Source: Clostridiales bacterium (GTDB lineage Bacteria > Bacillota > Clostridia > Peptostreptococcales > NVVX01). From it: a stretch of 58,468 nt of DNA. The translations under genes and the position numbers were made by a program. The stretch lies in the NCBI GenBank assembly GCA_021129775.1, contig JAJOKP010000006.1:1-58468 (forward strand), written 5' to 3'. The notes below the pieces were generated by a model. That model made no database searches. It saw nothing but the letters and a program-made list of their open reading frames with translations, and was not told the origin of the DNA. Within the stretch, counting starts at the first letter, position 1, and each line of letters begins with the position of its first letter. This document shows positions 6,035 through 47,910 of the stretch, in pieces.

Positions 6035-6763
6035 CTACTCATAATCTAATTTATTTTCATACATATAGTCTAAAATATATTCATTCAATATGCTTTTTCT
6101 CATTCTCCAATCAGGCATAAACTTATCCATATATGCTACAAATACTTCGTTATGACTCTCTTCTAATAAATGTGTTAGTTCGTGAAGAACTATATATTCT
6201 AAGCAAGATAACGGCTTTTTCGCCAATTGAAGATTGATCCATATCCTCTTATCCACAGTGTTACAGGTACCCCAACGTGTCTTCATATTTTTAACTCTGC
6301 AACTATCAACTTTTATACCAATTCTTCTTTGCCAAATTTCAACAAACTTAGTAATTTCCTTTTTCAAGAGCTCCCTATACCATTTATTAAGAGCCGCTTC
6401 ACGCTGTTTAACTGTGCTTTTTTCTCTAACATATAAATATAACCTATCTCCCTTTATCTCTACACGATTTTTCTTACTACCATGTTTAATAACCAATCTA
6501 TATCGGTTTCCCCATACATAAACACTTTCTCCATCTATAAATCTCCGCTCTGACTGCCTAGCTTGATTCTTAAATCTTTCCTTTTGCTTTTTAATCCAAC
6601 CAATCTTAGAAACAATAAACAATCTAATAGCATCATCATCAACGGATAATGGGACAGATACTCTAACAATACCATTTGGCGGTAGTACGGAAAGATGCAT
6701 ATTTTTAATGTTTTTTTTAATAACTTGAATACCCATTCCACCAACTATTTCATTTACCATCAA
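6035..6763 (-). CDS. YgjP/DUF45-type (M48-like) metallopeptidase
   Basis: MKTRWGTCN...LEYIVLHELTHLLEESHNEVF HExxH motif; overlaps the HsdR stop. Confidence 0.88.
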   Translation of the reverse strand: MMVNEIVGGMGIQVIKKNIKNMHLSVLPPNGIVRVSVPLSVDDDAIRLFIVSKIGWIKKQKERFKNQARQSERRFIDGESVYVWGNRYRLVIKHGSKKNRVEIKGDRLYLYVREKSTVKQREAALNKWYRELLKKEITKFVEIWQRRIGIKVDSCRVKNMKTRWGTCNTVDKRIWINLQLAKKPLSCLEYIVLHELTHLLEESHNEVFVAYMDKFMPDWRMRKSILNEYILDYMYENKLDYE

Positions 6764-21152: not shown

Positions 21153-22540
21153 TCAACGGTTTTTGCGACGTAGTTTTATTAGCGTTTCTACATGTGACGT
21201 ATGAGGAAATAAATCGACTGGCTGCACTTCTATTGCTTTATAGCTCTTCTCGTTTAAATATGCTAAATCTCTTGCGAGTGTTGCAGGGTTACATGATACG
21301 TACACTATTTTTTCAGGATTCATATTAACTATAATGTCTAATAATTTTTGGTCGCAGCCGCGTCTTGGTGGATCAACTATAACTACGTCAGCTGTAATCC
21401 CTTTTCTATAAAGATTTTCTACAGTTTTCCCTGCCTCTCCTACATAAAATTCTGCATTCGCTATTTGATTTAGCGTAGCATTTTCTTTTGCATCGTGAAC
21501 AGCTTTTTCTACTATTTCAACTCCGTAAACTTTTTTGGCTTTTCTAGCTAAAAATAGTGAAATACTACCCGTTCCGCAATACAGATCAAAAACGTTTTCT
21601 AATCCTTTCAAATCTGCAAATTCTAGCACTTTCTCATAAAGCACTTTTGTTTGAATTGTATTAATTTGAAAAAATGATTGCGCAGAGATATTAAATTTCA
21701 AATCGCCAATCTGTTCTTCAATCTTCTCGGAGCCAAAAATCACTTTAGTTTTTTCTCCAAAAATTATATTTGTCACTTTATTGTTTACATTATGTACTAC
21801 ACTTTTTAACCCTAGAACGTTTTTTCTCAAAATTTCAACTAGTTTATTTTCAAAAGGCAATTCTTTGGTTTTCGTTACTAATATAACCATAACATCTCCT
21901 GTATTAAATCCCACTCCTGTTATTATGTTTCTTAGAACACCTTTTTTTGTTGTTTCATTATAAATGTTTACATTATAGCATTCTACATATTCTTTAATGC
22001 TCTTTACAATGCTCTCATTTATTGGATGTTGAATATAGCAATAATCTAAATCCACAATATTATGTGTGCCTTTTCGAAAAAACCCATTTCAATTTTCCCA
22101 TTATTCAGTCCTATCGGAAATTGTGCTTTGTTGCGATATCTATATGGGTTGTCCATCCCTATAGTATCGTTCACTATAATATCAATTTTCCCTATGCGTT
22201 TTAGAGTCTCTTGAACTTTTTTTCTTTTTTGTTTCAATTGCTCTGTGTAATCAATGTGCATTATTTGACATCCTCCGCATTGATTGGCTATGTTGCATGC
22301 TAGTACTACTCTGTGAGGCGATGATTTAACTATCTCAATCATTTTTCCTACTGCATAGTTCTTTTTAATTGCTATAATTCTTACTCTTAACCTATCTTGA
22401 GGAATTCCACCATTAACAAATATCGTTAAGCCTTCAATTCTGCCTATCCCTTCACCACTACTACCAATTTCATTAATTCCAATATTGTATATCTTGCCTT
22501 TTTCAATCACTTTTTTGCCCTCGCTTTTCACTTCACTCAT
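21153..22540 (-). pseudogene. rlmD: 23S rRNA (uracil-5-)-methyltransferase, RlmD/RumA family, split by a homopolymer frameshift
   Basis: TRAM/Fe-S half 22046-22540 (ACNIANQCGGCQIMHI) and SAM half 21153-22055 (NVFDLYCGTGSISLFLA, VDPPRRGCDQ, VYVSCNPATLARDL); adding one T to the T6 run restores GFFRKGTHNIVDLDYCYIQHP. Confidence 0.9.
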
Positions 22541-26693: not shown

Positions 26694-27030
26694 ACGAGAA
26701 CATTCAAATTGCGTCGTTACGTTACTTGCTCAATCTTCACGTACAAAATACGTACGCTTCATCAATCGCAATTAGCGCGCCTAACACTTTAAACATTCTC
26801 GTGCTTCTCAGAAATTCAAAACACGTCGTTCTTCCTGTTTGCTCAATCTTCGCGTACAAAATACGTACGCTTCATCAATCGCAATTAGCGCGCCTAACAC
26901 TTTAAACATTCTCGTGCTTCTCAGAAATTCAAAACACGTCGTTCTTCCTGTTTGCTCAATCTTCGCGTACAAAATACGTACGCTTCATCAATCGCAATTA
27001 GCGCGCAAACCTTCTAAACATCCTTGTGCT
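26694..27030. repeat. About 2.9 copies of a 113-bp tandem repeat
   Basis: ttgctcaatctt at 26726, 26839 and 26952 (period 113); copies 2 and 3 almost identical. Confidence 0.9.
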
Positions 27031-27051: not shown

Positions 27052-27245
27052 GGTACGCAATTGACGGAGAGTGAGTGCAGCGACAACGAGATTGATGCAC
27101 AATCCTCCTCTCAACAAATCAGAGCGATTTAAATGTATTAATCTCTAGGAGCCACGATCACGACCGAATGCGCGTACTACGGTACGCAATTGACAGAGAG
27201 TGAGTGCAGCGACAACGAGATTGATGCATTTAAATCGCTCTGATT
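27052..27245. repeat. Direct repeat (48 bp, 1 mismatch) plus 19-bp perfect inverted repeats abutting rpoN
   Basis: ggtacgcaattgac(g/a)gagagtgagtgcagcgacaacgagattgatgca at 27052 and 27181; aatcagagcgatttaaatg (27117-27135) and catttaaatcgctctgatt (27227-27245). Confidence 0.9.
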
Positions 27246-28650
27246 AGTAGCGGCGCCGCCGGGATGTGCACTTTATCCCCAAACTGCTTCTATACTTCGC
27301 TACTGTCCGCCTAGAAGCCAATATTCCCTTAGCTTCTAGCAGACTCACTAATTTATTGTCACTCAACGGCTTCTTAGGATTTTCTTCAGCTATGATTTCT
27401 TTTATATATTTCTTAGTGCTTTCAGAAGAAACTTTTATTCCATCAATGCCTGCTACCCCGCTCGAAAAAAAGTACTTTAGCTCAAACATTCCTAGTGGTG
27501 TTTCTACGTACTTTCCGCTTGTCGCTCTACTTACAGTCGATTCGTGAACATCTATTGTAGTTGCAACTTCCTTCAAAGTCATTGGCTTTAAGCTCTTTTT
27601 CCCATACTCAAAAAAATCTTTTTGTCTTATCAATATTTCTTCAATCACTTTCCGAATTGTGCGTTTTCTCTGCTCTATGCTTTTGATTATCCAGGATGCT
27701 GAATTATACTTGTCATTAATATAATTTGATAATTCGCTATTCTTATTACTATTAATCAACATTTCTTTGTACGCATTGCTTATTTTTAGGCGCGGCGAAT
27801 AATTATCTGTTATAATTATAATGTATTCTCCATTGACTTCTTTTATTATTGCATCCGGAGTTATATAACGCAATTTAGTGTTTGAAAATTTTCTCCCTGG
27901 CTTTGGCTCTAATGTCTTAATAAAATCACAAATGGACTGTATTTCTTCAACTGTAGTTTTTAGTTGGTTCGCAATAAACGGAAACTTGTGAGTTGCCATC
28001 TCATTTATGAATTCAGCTACAATTATGTAAGCCTTAGAGGGTTTCATGTTTTTATTATTCAATTGAATCATAAGACATTCTCTTAAATTCCTAGCTGCAA
28101 TACCGGATGGTTCAAAAGTCTGTATAATACTTAGAGTGTTTTCTACAATCGCTATACCCACATTGTTGTACCTAGCAATTTCATCTACCGAAAGGGCTAG
28201 ATATCCGTTAGAATCTAAGCTATTTATAATATAATTTGCAATTTGATCGTATCTGTCTATATTAGCTGTTAATCTGTATTGTTCCATTAAAAAATCTTGC
28301 AGATTGATAGTATCTGAAATGATGTTTTCATAATTGTAATCATTTTCAGTGTCTCTGTATTGAATCTTTGAAGAATATGTGGTGCTTTTATAGTAATCTT
28401 TCCAATACTCCGCCCAATCAACTTTGTTTGCATCTTTTTCACTATGCTCGCTAGAATCACTCATTGTATGCTCTTCTATCTCTAGAATTGGATTAGTAAT
28501 GAACTCCTTCATAATAAACTGCCTTAAATCTAATGAGTTAAGTTGTAATATTTTAATAGACTGTTTTAACTGAGGAGTCATAATTAATTTTTGTGTTTGT
28601 ATTAAATTTTGTGTTTGTCCCATTTGCATAATATCACCTTCAACGTTCAT
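27244..28650 (-). CDS. rpoN: RNA polymerase sigma-54 factor
   Basis: QTQKLIMTPQLKQSIKILQLNSLDL; DVHESTVSRATSGKYVETPLGMFELKYFFSSG; RPON box SRRTVAKYRSSLGI. Confidence 0.97.
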   Translation of the reverse strand: MNVEGDIMQMGQTQNLIQTQKLIMTPQLKQSIKILQLNSLDLRQFIMKEFITNPILEIEEHTMSDSSEHSEKDANKVDWAEYWKDYYKSTTYSSKIQYRDTENDYNYENIISDTINLQDFLMEQYRLTANIDRYDQIANYIINSLDSNGYLALSVDEIARYNNVGIAIVENTLSIIQTFEPSGIAARNLRECLMIQLNNKNMKPSKAYIIVAEFINEMATHKFPFIANQLKTTVEEIQSICDFIKTLEPKPGRKFSNTKLRYITPDAIIKEVNGEYIIIITDNYSPRLKISNAYKEMLINSNKNSELSNYINDKYNSASWIIKSIEQRKRTIRKVIEEILIRQKDFFEYGKKSLKPMTLKEVATTIDVHESTVSRATSGKYVETPLGMFELKYFFSSGVAGIDGIKVSSESTKKYIKEIIAEENPKKPLSDNKLVSLLEAKGILASRRTVAKYRSSLGIKCTSRRRRY

Positions 28651-28704
28651 TGATTAATTCTATTATAACACTTTTCACGTTAAAAATAAACACTAAATTC
28701 TATT

Positions 28705-28720
28705 GGCACGCTTCTTGCAA
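28705..28720 (+). promoter_or_regulatory. Sigma-54 (-24/-12) promoter upstream of yjjI
   Basis: TGGCACG-cttc-TTGCA, GG-N10-GC spacing. Confidence 0.75.
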
Positions 28721-29012
28721 ATTTAAGTGACGGTATAAGATGCCCTGCTTAAAGAAAAACACCAAAATCCCAGTGAATAATTCTTGCAAAATCACAAATT
28801 AACTGTTATTATTTTGTTAGTGAAAAATCGCCCAAATACAGGTAAATACTCTTTTGTAGGTCATAAAATCAACAAAATATTATTTTACAAAAATAGAAAT
28901 TTGGTAGAATAGTTTAGGCTTCATGTCTGCCTCTTTACCCTCTCAGAATAAACCTTGAATTTGAAGCGAAGATCCTTTTATATGACATTAAGTTAGAATT
29001 GGAGTTGTTTCT

Positions 29013-30530
29013 ATGATATCTGATAAAAAAGACATAATTGATATAGTGAAAAATAAAGCTCTTACTTATCAGCAGAAGCTATTTAATTTAGCCAATATTT
29101 CTGAAAGGCTATTAGAATCCAGAGAAATATTAAGATATACAAATGAAGAAATTATACACCTTGAAAATCATATGATATGTGATTTAAATGAAGGCTACGC
29201 AATCTATAGACCAAGATATATCGTTGCCGATTACAGCACTTTTGTAAAAAAAGGATGTAAATTCTTAGATATAAGTGCACCAAAGAATATAGATGAATTA
29301 CTTGACGGCTTATTAATTCTATATAATCATGTGCCTTCGATAACTTCATTTCCAGTGTACATCGGAAATATTGATACATTAATTGATCCATTTATTACAG
29401 ATGAGCAAACTGATTATATAAAGATAAAACGATTCTTAAATCATATTGATAAAACCATAGTAGATTCCTTCTGTCATGCGAATATTGGACCAAATAAAAC
29501 AAAGGCAGGCGAACTAATAATTAAAACTATACTAGAACTTAAAAACCCTACTCCGAACATAACATTAAGATATAATAGTAAAGTTACAGATAAAGATTTT
29601 GCACTTACTGCAGTAAAAGCCTGCTTAAAAGCTTCTAAACCCTCTTTTAGTAACGAAAATCTGTATCATAAGGATATGGGAGAACACGCTATAGTAAGTT
29701 GTTACAACGCTTTGCCAATGTCAGGCGGTGCTTATACATTACTTAGACTCAGACTCGGTACAATAGCAAAAGCGTCTAAAACATTCAAAGAGTTTATTGA
29801 GATTACATTGCCAAAAGTTACTAAGCTCATGTTGAATATGATAGACAAAAGAATAAAGTTCTTAGTAGAAGAATCTAGTTTTTTCGAAACATCATTTCTA
29901 GTAAAAGAAAGTTTTATAAGTAGAGACAATTTCACAGCTATGGCAGGAATTGTCGGGTTAGCTGATGCAGTTAATCATTTTTTAGCCTCAGAAGGAAAAG
30001 CCGAGCGCTTTGGATTATCAAGTGAAGGCGATGAAATTGCTCATCACATAATGCAAACAATAGCAAGTAATGTTAATTCGCATAAAGGTGTTTATGTTGA
30101 ACGAACAAAAGAGAAATATCTGCTACACGCGCAAGTAGGGGCTAATTTAAGTGATGAAGATAATTATAACACCCCTGCTCACAGAATCCCTATTGGTGAA
30201 GAACCTGATTTGCATGTTCACATAAAACAAGCAGCGCAGTTTCATAAATATTTTGTTTCTGGCACTGGTGACCTTTTTGCATTCGACCAAACATACTTAG
30301 GAAATTTAGATGCTGTGCTAGATATCATAAATGGAGCTATGGAAATGAATTATAGATATATAACTACCTATTTGCAGAACTCAGATCTTGTTCGTGTTAC
30401 TGGATATTTAGTTAAAAGAAGTGAAGTCAATAAAGTAGAGAGAGGGGAAGTGGTATTAAGAGATACAGCTATATTAGCAAAGGGAACCAATGATAATTCT
30501 AAAGTCTTCCAAAGAAGGATTCGTAAATAA
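29013..30530 (+). CDS. yjjI: YjjI family glycine radical enzyme
   Basis: C-terminal glycyl-radical motif RVTGYLVKRSEV; paired with YjjW-type activase. Confidence 0.85.
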   Translation: MISDKKDIIDIVKNKALTYQQKLFNLANISERLLESREILRYTNEEIIHLENHMICDLNEGYAIYRPRYIVADYSTFVKKGCKFLDISAPKNIDELLDGLLILYNHVPSITSFPVYIGNIDTLIDPFITDEQTDYIKIKRFLNHIDKTIVDSFCHANIGPNKTKAGELIIKTILELKNPTPNITLRYNSKVTDKDFALTAVKACLKASKPSFSNENLYHKDMGEHAIVSCYNALPMSGGAYTLLRLRLGTIAKASKTFKEFIEITLPKVTKLMLNMIDKRIKFLVEESSFFETSFLVKESFISRDNFTAMAGIVGLADAVNHFLASEGKAERFGLSSEGDEIAHHIMQTIASNVNSHKGVYVERTKEKYLLHAQVGANLSDEDNYNTPAHRIPIGEEPDLHVHIKQAAQFHKYFVSGTGDLFAFDQTYLGNLDAVLDIINGAMEMNYRYITTYLQNSDLVRVTGYLVKRSEVNKVERGEVVLRDTAILAKGTNDNSKVFQRRIRK

Positions 30531-31370
30531 TGAGAGATATTATTGTAAATAAGATAATACCCTTCTCTACTGTGGACGGAATTGGAAATAGATGTGCAAT
30601 TTTTGTTCAAGGCTGTAATGTAAATTGTATATATTGCCATAATAGTGAGACAATAAACTTGTGTAATGAATGCAGAGAATGCATTGAAGTTTGCGACCAG
30701 AACGCATTAACATATTTATACAATAAAATTCATTATAATGAAGATAAATGTACATTTTGTGATAATTGCATTAATTTAAGTAAGTACCAATCATCACCTA
30801 AGACTAAAAAGTATACTGTCGAAGAATTATTTCAGGTTGTAAAAAGATATAAGCCTTTTATAAGAGGCATTACAATATCAGGCGGGGAACCAACTTTATA
30901 CAAAGATTTTTTGCTTAAATTATTTAAGAAAGTCAAAGAATTGGGCATAACTTGCTATGTCGACACAAATGGGTTTTATAATGGAGAGAATTTAATTGAT
31001 TTAATAAAAGAAACAGACAATTTCCTATTTGATATTAAATCAATCCACCAAACTAAATCTTTATGTCGCACACAATTAAAGGGCTGTTTAGAAAATCTAG
31101 TTCATCTATTGAATTTAAACAAAGTAGAAGAAGTTAGACCTGTAATCATAGGTGATTATGACGATAGCAAAAACACTGTAATTACAGTCGCAAAAACACT
31201 TAAAAACTATCCTGATGTTACTTATAAACTAATTAAAGTCCATACGTTAGGTTTAAAAAAAAGAGCAAACGAAGCTAATTAAAGATCAAATACCAAGCGA
31301 TGAAGAAGTGCTAGAGCTTGTTAAAATAGCAAAAAACATCGGTCTACTCAAAGTTAAATACATTTTATAA
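30530..31370 (+). pseudogene. yjjW: YjjW family glycine radical enzyme activase (radical SAM), C-terminus frameshifted at an A8 run
   Basis: VQGCNVNCIYCHNSETINLC radical SAM motif, 4Fe-4S insert, ISGGEPTLYKDF; intact ORF 30530-31282; removing one A restores HTLGLKKEQTKLIKDQIPSDEEVLELVKIAKNIGLLKVKYIL* ending at 31370. Confidence 0.85.
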
Positions 31371-42021: not shown

Positions 42022-43332
42022 CTAATCTTCAAACACTGTTTGCCCATCAACTTCTGTTTGCAATGCTTCCAAAGATTTCTCAACTATTTTTCGTCTTAAG
42101 GCTTTCTCATCTTTTTCATCCAACTCAGGATTTCCTAGTGGATAAGGAATAGCAAACGCAGGAACAATTCTATTAGCTCCAACCGTTAATGATATTGGCA
42201 CTACTGTACAAATGTGAACTACAGGGATTCCTGTTTTTTCAATTTCTTTCACCATTGTTGCACCGCAACGTGTACAAGTGCCTCACGTAGATGTTAGAAT
42301 AACTGCATCTATACCATCATTTTGTAATTTTTTAGCGATGTCTGAAGCGAATTCCTTAGAACTATTTACTGATGTACCATTTCCAACAGTAGTGTAGAAG
42401 TATTTGTGAAGTTCACCAATAACTCCTTCTTTTTCTAAATCTCTAAGTACGTCAACAGGGATAACTCTGTCAGGATCAATATTTGCATACACTGGGTCAT
42501 AGCCACCATGTGCAGTTTCATGGCTTTCTTCTGTTAAGTTTGTGAATCCACTTATATCATACCCGCCATATTTTGATGCACTTGAAGATTCAATTCTGTC
42601 TGGATTGCCTTTTGGCACTATTCCGCCTGAAGTTACTATAGCAATTTTTACTTTAGTTAAGTCTTTTACTGCTGCACTTGGCTCAACTCTATCAAAATTT
42701 GGCATAGGGTATTCAGTTACGAATGGTTCCCCTTTTAATTTCTTCATAAGCATATCAACGGCTCTTTTAGAACCTTTATCTTTTGCAAAGAAGTTTTTCC
42801 TTATTCCTCGAGGGATATACTTGTCTTCATCGGGCGCACCAATCTCTTCACCTTTAAGCATTTTCACTGCTAAATTTGCCATTGCAGGCACTGCTTTTCT
42901 CATGGTTGCTGCAGAATTACCAGTTTCAACAATGTAAATACTCTTCTTGTACATATCTGCCCCTGGATTTTCTATATACATACCTGAGATTACAGGAATA
43001 TTTAATTCCTTTTTAATTGCTTCTGAAACGGCTCCACAAGCAACTCCATATCTTCCAGCATTAAATGCAGGTCCAGCAATAAATAAGTCTGGTTTGTACT
43101 CTTTAACCATTTTAATAATAGTTTCCTTAGCTTCTTCTAAGTTTTCATTGAAATATGAGTCTCCACAAACAACTGTGGCTACAATTTCAGCTTCTTGGTT
43201 AATAGCCTTATTAATTGCCATTCCTGGACCAACAAACCCTTCCCTTATTTCAGGCTTAATATCAGCTTTTTCTTCTCCTCCGATGCCAGCGAAAAACTGA
43301 TTAATATAATGAACAACTCTTTTTTTACTCAT
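42022..43332 (-). CDS. grdB: Glycine reductase component B gamma subunit, selenoprotein (UGA=Sec, codon 350, 42283-42285)
   Basis: Two ORFs joined by in-frame TGA: ...DAVILTST-U-GTCTRCGATMVKEIEKTGIPVVHICTVVPISLTVG... Confidence 0.95.
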
Positions 43333-47289: not shown

Positions 47290-47510
47290 GCCACAAGTTA
47301 GCTCTGTTGTTTTACCTAAGAGATTCTTAAGTTATTTTTTAGTCCAAATATAAACTAAACAATACCTAATTGTTCCTTCGGTGCTTTACGCTCTTCAGAG
47401 AATTGTCCAAATACGATCCTTTTGCCTGAGATTTTCCCTAAAAAATTGGCATCTTCTAGCTTCACCCTTCGGCGCTTTCAACAGCAAAGTCTCTCCCGCA
47501 TTTTTCATCC
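47290..47510 (-). ncRNA. Tandem glycine riboswitch upstream of grdX
   Basis: Aptamer 1 GGGAGAGACTTTGC...GCGCCGAAGGGTGAAGCT...AATCTCAGGCAAAAGGATCG; aptamer 2 ATTCTCTGAAGAG...GCACCGAAGGAACAA...AATCTCTTAGGTAAAACAACAGAG. Confidence 0.9.
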
Positions 47511-47539: not shown

Positions 47540-47910
47540 CCGCGTGAAAACCCTCAACCTTTAGGTTAGGGAAGAAGCGCCGCTGTCCTCTTTTTTTGCA
47601 CGTGCATTGCTTAAATAAAATATATTAAAGCCTCCCACGTGCTAGAGTAATTAGCCATCGACAATGTTATAAATGCTTTTTAAACGTAGAACACAATCCC
47701 TACCCATCAGGATTGTTTAATACTACACGGTAGCGCCGTAGACTTGGCTAAATATCCACGGGTATCATGACATAAATAACGTAGCCAGTTACCTGTCTGC
47801 GTGTAACTCACAGGCAGAAGACTTAGTCTAATCAACAATGGCTTTTTCAAGCCCCATCCTTTTAAGAGCGTAGGTTATTGACCCAATTGCTTATTAAGTT
47901 CTCTATTCAA
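47540..47910 (-). ncRNA. Candidate structured non-coding RNA transcribed towards the glycine riboswitch
   Basis: Own sigma-A promoter; hairpins GGCTT-GAAA-AAGCC, GGCTA...TAGCC, CTACGG-cgcta-CCGTGTAG, ACAATCC...GGATTGT; terminator-like CCCTAACCT-aa-AGGTTGAGGG-TTTT; no ORF. Confidence 0.5.

Follow-up and report, generated by a model that had tools for sequence, protein, structure and literature searches.

A conserved sigma-54 element back to back with the rpoN promoter in five related families of Bacillota, and its probable role in rpoN autoregulation

Introduction

The closed complex formed by sigma-54 holoenzyme (Esigma54) is stable and stays silent until an activator (EBP) acts on it. In one catabolic system an EBP-dependent promoter reportedly faces the gene of its own regulator, and the effect on the divergent sigma-70 promoter is said to be stimulatory. 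This is the case of Johansson et al. (2008), cited in PMC3844500 as one in which Esigma54 controls a divergent sigma-70 promoter that it does not overlap. As far as that citation describes it, the system resembles the locus reported here in that a sigma-54 site and a housekeeping promoter stand back to back without overlap, but the gene affected here would be rpoN itself, and there is usually no gene on the other side.

Negative autoregulation of rpoN has been reported in Rhizobium leguminosarum, according to its citation in PMC3538637. To judge from that citation, the likeness to this proteobacterium is that the gene's own product limits rpoN output, which is a proposal in our case; there the effect was reported from expression, whereas here it is suggested by a conserved, phased antisense site in Bacillota, read from sequence alone. 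In Clostridium beijerinckii, a point mutant of sigma-54 that was inactive by complementation had sigL mRNA much above the wild-type level, which was described as 'potential feedback regulation' (PMC6510779). That system and the one proposed here are alike in that rpoN/sigL output is limited when sigma-54 is active, there seen as mRNA level; C. beijerinckii belongs to a different lineage from the families that carry our site, and the comparison runs via sigL mRNA and not via promoter sequence.

Sigma-54 governs much of fermentation and amino-acid catabolism in Gram-positive anaerobes (PMC6615313), and how its level is set in these organisms is little known. In the Clostridiales, ordinary sigma-54 promoters that depend on an EBP (PMC6615313) have the same -24/-12 element as the site described here, which differs from them in lacking an adjacent EBP, a recognised enhancer and a conserved target gene.

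Results

The window is the whole stretch of DNA that was analysed (58,468 nt). The features that surround the sigma-54 site within it are:

27244–28650, minus strand: rpoN, sigma-54 (TIGR02395, 428.7 bits)
28662–28670, minus strand: extended -10 element of rpoN (TGTTATAAT), 36 bp away from the sigma-54 site
28685–28690, minus strand: weak putative -35 of rpoN, TTTATT, with a 17-bp spacer
28704–28719, plus strand: full-consensus sigma-54 -24/-12 element, TGGCACGCTTCTTGCA, antisense to rpoN
28784–28812, plus strand: weak sigma-A-like candidate, TTGCAA-N17-TATTAT preceded by TG, a possible alternative yjjI promoter
29013–30530, plus strand: yjjI, glycyl radical enzyme (TIGR04040, 691.3 bits)
30530–31282, plus strand: yjjW, glycyl radical enzyme activase (TIGR04041, 274.2 bits), its C-terminus cut by a frame change

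These profile matches confirm the gene names rpoN, yjjI and yjjW given in the first-pass annotation. YjjI is matched over its full length and above the curated cut-off of 498.3 bits, with the activase gene adjacent, and YjjW exceeds its curated cut-off of 250.2 bits. The yjjW stop codon (31282) lies just past a run of eight A (31255–31262), and the usual C-terminal stretch of about 28 codons runs on in another frame to 31370; the early end may be an assembly error, slippage or a real truncation. For rpoN, the first in-frame ATG (28650) is 54 bp from the sigma-54 site, while the ATG that appears the likelier start (28629, behind GAAGGTGA) is 75 bp from it. The yjjI ATG (29013) is found 294 bp beyond the site, and its leader, counted from a predicted start near 28730, would be about 283 nt long. 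Sigma-A-like matches in the region around 28784–28812 occur at chance level, and Rfam identified no RNA family between rpoN and yjjI, so that an RNA leader there was dropped from consideration.

The element TGGCACGCTTCTTGCA agrees with TGGCACG-N4-TTGCA at all positions, with the GG-N10-GC spacing and the TGGCAC / TTGCA consensus of a sigma-54 element. No other stretch of the window matches TGGCACNNNNNTTGC without a mismatch, and in a scan with a weight matrix that was hand-built from the published consensus the element scores 21.0 bits against 14.4 for the runner-up, a margin of 6.6 bits. The -24/-12 consensus claimed earlier is thus borne out; the 16-mer is indeed present, although its true span is 28704–28719, one base to the left of the 28705–28720 originally assigned. 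As a sequence element, the site is genuinely of the sigma-54 type, non-random and conserved.

The 2.2-Mb genome as a whole contains 11 exact core matches, of which three carry TGGCACG. Core matches with at most one mismatch number 124, compared with 30 for the reversed pattern, and the genome therefore has a real sigma-54 regulon. It encodes 10 sigma-54 activators (EBPs), all of them off the window's contig, and the earlier statement that none is encoded nearby was correct. Ordinary sigma-54 sites adjoin several of the 10 EBP genes, while a few EBPs have no such site or are located at contig ends, and for this reason no single candidate is named. The first-pass annotation had also suggested a search for upstream EBP sites and an orphan EBP. 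With respect to the former, repeats that might mark an enhancer were only weak or coding-derived; an 18-bp repeat at 28583–28618 was ruled out, as it is rpoN coding sequence for QTQNLI/QTQKLI. With respect to the latter, the 10 EBPs were found, none of them nearby. The earlier observation of the site itself stands, given that it is the only perfect match in the window, that a regulon is evident in the genome and that the contig carries no EBP. A further full-consensus site, TGGCACGTTTATTGCA, occurs at 6320–6335 of L082 (G000 contig C6, minus strand), about 430 bp upstream of an ORF of 690 aa that is chemotaxis receptor-like by its N-terminus only, and that is a candidate member of the sigma-54 regulon.

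Genes for YjjI (TIGR04040) were gathered from 98 genomes. No sigma-54 site pointing toward yjjI was detected within 500 bp of any of 27 further yjjI genes of this order (for one locus, L014, about 100 bp were scanned), the best score being 8.5 bits against 21.0 in the window. The pairing of the site with yjjI is therefore peculiar to the window genome among those examined, and the site is not conserved before orthologous targets. A site near yjjI in genome G066 was rejected as a conserved promoter, as it is located inside yjjW and points the other way. In the congener G001 a sigma-54 site, TGGCACAAATTTTGCA, is present at rpoN and yjjI is absent.

Within the same order, 91 rpoN genes were then scored for sites in their upstream regions; an antisense site was counted if it reached at least 12 bits and lay 60–200 bp ahead of the point where the RpoN profile match begins. 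Such a site (GG-N10-GC) occurs at this conserved position by the rpoN promoter in 28 of the 91 regions. Four equal-sized control windows gave 0–2 antisense sites each (2/360 overall), and same-strand sigma-54 sites were found in none of the 91 upstream regions. The distribution follows families: 13/13 in f3, 7/7 in f5, 4/4 in f7, 2/3 in f8 and 2/3 in f1, together 28/30, as against 0/61 in the seven other families. When 395 genomes of the order were scanned for an antisense site followed by an extended -10 within 28–50 bp, 31 of the 36 matches were at rpoN (five matches without a locus being put at rpoN by their coordinates), and the reversed control gave none. Applied to 277 genomes that belong to the class but not to the order, the same scan returned three background matches, none at rpoN. 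Across many phyla, 78 loci showed no enrichment of antisense sites at rpoN, and the Clostridium rpoN loci L236 and L244 are without the antisense site.

Most relatives carry TGGCAT forms of the site, while the window copy is full-consensus and stronger; G062 also has a full-consensus copy, without a divergent gene, and in the congener G002 the site is degenerate and scores just 9.3 bits. In all 27 other site-bearing genomes the nearest ORF upstream of rpoN is co-directional with it, so that the site faces no gene start, and only in the window genome, among the 28, does a divergent gene (yjjI) lie beyond it. The upstream genes vary and differ between families (nucleoside-transporter permease, reductase-like, thioredoxin-reductase-like and others), and in G004 the nearest ORF is merely 90 aa long. 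Conservation of the site is thus independent of the neighbouring gene. As the site stays with rpoN in the relatives, and not with yjjI, it probably serves the control of rpoN, and the comparison argues strongly that the element belongs to that gene.

The position of the site relative to the rpoN promoter is restricted. All 28 site-bearing genomes have TGNTATAAT (one has TGGTACAAT) at the position of the rpoN extended -10, and the -24 element is about 51–65 bp before the predicted rpoN start. Across 20 genera, the gap between the site and the -10 is either 36–40 bp or 47–50 bp and never 41–46 bp; the two classes are about one helical turn apart, and both are found within family f3. For clustering by phase at 10.5 bp the p value is about 1.5e-5, and for the empty middle about 5e-5; both are to be taken as guides only because the 20 genera are related. 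In an alignment on the site that takes a single genome from each genus, the GG and GC cores show no variation; flanking columns hold 0.16–0.25 bits. It appears that selection has kept a protein on one particular side of the helix with respect to the rpoN promoter.

A second arrangement occurs in the sister family f10, where the extended -10 of rpoN is often TGGTATAATNNTTGCA, itself GG-N10-GC on the rpoN strand (L321, L327, L331–L335, L345 and L346). Among 30 loci with TGNTATAATNNTTGCA, the GG forms are at rpoN in 9 of 12 cases and the non-GG forms in 1 of 18. Fusibacter sp. 3D3 (L234) likewise has a sigma-54-like site, TGGCAGCAAATTTGCTATAAT, over the rpoN -10. These overlapping sites are weaker matches, and lend support to autoregulation of rpoN without amounting to proof.

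Discussion

Of several possible explanations for the conserved element, we favour, with reasonable confidence, one where the sigma-A transcription of the rpoN gene is modulated, and most likely repressed, by Esigma54, and where yjjI is not the primary target. We infer that Esigma54 would bind the site, that binding would affect rpoN, and that the sign would be negative. The stable closed complex that Esigma54 would form and the extended -10 promoter of rpoN would be arranged back to back, with the upstream side of the complex turned toward that promoter and its helical face fixed; from there the complex would oppose the RNA polymerase at rpoN and hinder sigma-A transcription. If the element represses rpoN, as is likely, sigma-54 would cap its own synthesis, and the rpoN promoter, with its 16-bp element of restricted geometry, would offer a directly testable autoregulatory circuit. 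Against an rpoN element stands its absence from seven families of the order.

The first-pass annotation had placed YjjI/YjjW under sigma-54 control, beside the gene for their own sigma factor. Of this, the real site and the meaningful adjacency to rpoN hold, while yjjI as the target is unsupported; if the element has any role in driving yjjI, this would be an addition confined to this one genome. How such an addition could have arisen is suggested by gene order. In G036, G079 and G030 the genes run BMP lipoprotein-yjjI-yjjW-nupABC-rpoN, all co-directional. The window has BMP, nupABC and rpoN in the same order on the minus strand, with yjjW-yjjI inverted between nupC and rpoN. We infer a local rearrangement that inverted yjjIW, as well as the direction of this change, and through this inversion a site that faced outward would have come to face yjjI. 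An ancestral autoregulatory site of rpoN may thus have later become a working yjjIW promoter as well, a capture that we regard as a tentative possibility. The full-consensus window copy, which outdoes the TGGCAT forms of most relatives, is in keeping with it, but G062 is equally full-consensus without any divergent gene, and neither an EBP nor an enhancer can be assigned.

In the same three genomes (L097, L098 and L108), yjjI-yjjW is embedded among genes for a BMP-type lipoprotein and a nucleoside-type ABC transporter, which suggests a nucleoside-related substrate for YjjI. The cluster there follows reductase-like (grd-type) genes.

A broader reading would make Esigma54 a dedicated, helically phased transcription factor for its own gene throughout an order of anaerobic Bacillota, in at least two architectures, the antisense upstream site of the five families and the -10-overlapping site of the sister family, with capture of the site in the window's lineage as an EBP-dependent promoter of a glycyl radical enzyme operon. 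Taken as a whole, we consider this speculative and rather unlikely.

Autoregulation might also be positive, with Esigma54 at the site stimulating the rpoN promoter. Helical phasing would suit activation as well as repression, and control of a non-overlapping divergent sigma-70 promoter by Esigma54 has a precedent in the work cited in PMC3844500. The rpoN promoters already possess near-perfect extended -10 elements, however, and the sole clostridial expression data indicate negative feedback (PMC6510779). A stimulatory role is, in our opinion, improbable.

It is quite unlikely that the site exists because it is the sigma-54 promoter of yjjI-yjjW, served by an EBP encoded elsewhere. The perfect consensus, the right orientation, a predicted start near 28730 with yjjI next downstream, and 10 EBPs in the genome all fit such a promoter, but the other yjjI genes are without the site, the relatives keep it at rpoN with no gene start facing it, the 18-bp repeat is rpoN coding sequence and no enhancer was recognised, and a 283-nt leader is long. 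A perfect -24/-12 match beside rpoN, then, need not be the promoter of the gene it faces, a caution that bears on computed sigma-54 regulons. Least probable is an antisense or small RNA driven into the upstream gene, for which the orientation and the intact -24/-12 elements in all cases would be suitable, but the flank downstream of the site lacks conservation (mean 0.16 bits), the gene run into varies between families, and an Rfam search of the window gave no RNA family at this place.

Other features of the window

Between a uracil-DNA glycosylase-like gene and rpoN there is a short tandem array (26768–27008), in which AGGCGCGCTAATTGC is repeated on the minus strand at 26768, 26881 and 26994, with a spacing of 113 bp. 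An RNA methyltransferase-like gene is apparently split into overlapping minus-strand ORFs in different frames (22046–22540 and 21153–22055). A SECIS_4 element was identified at 42245–42282, and a glycine riboswitch (47404–47508) adjoins a HEARO RNA (47647–47882), both on the minus strand.
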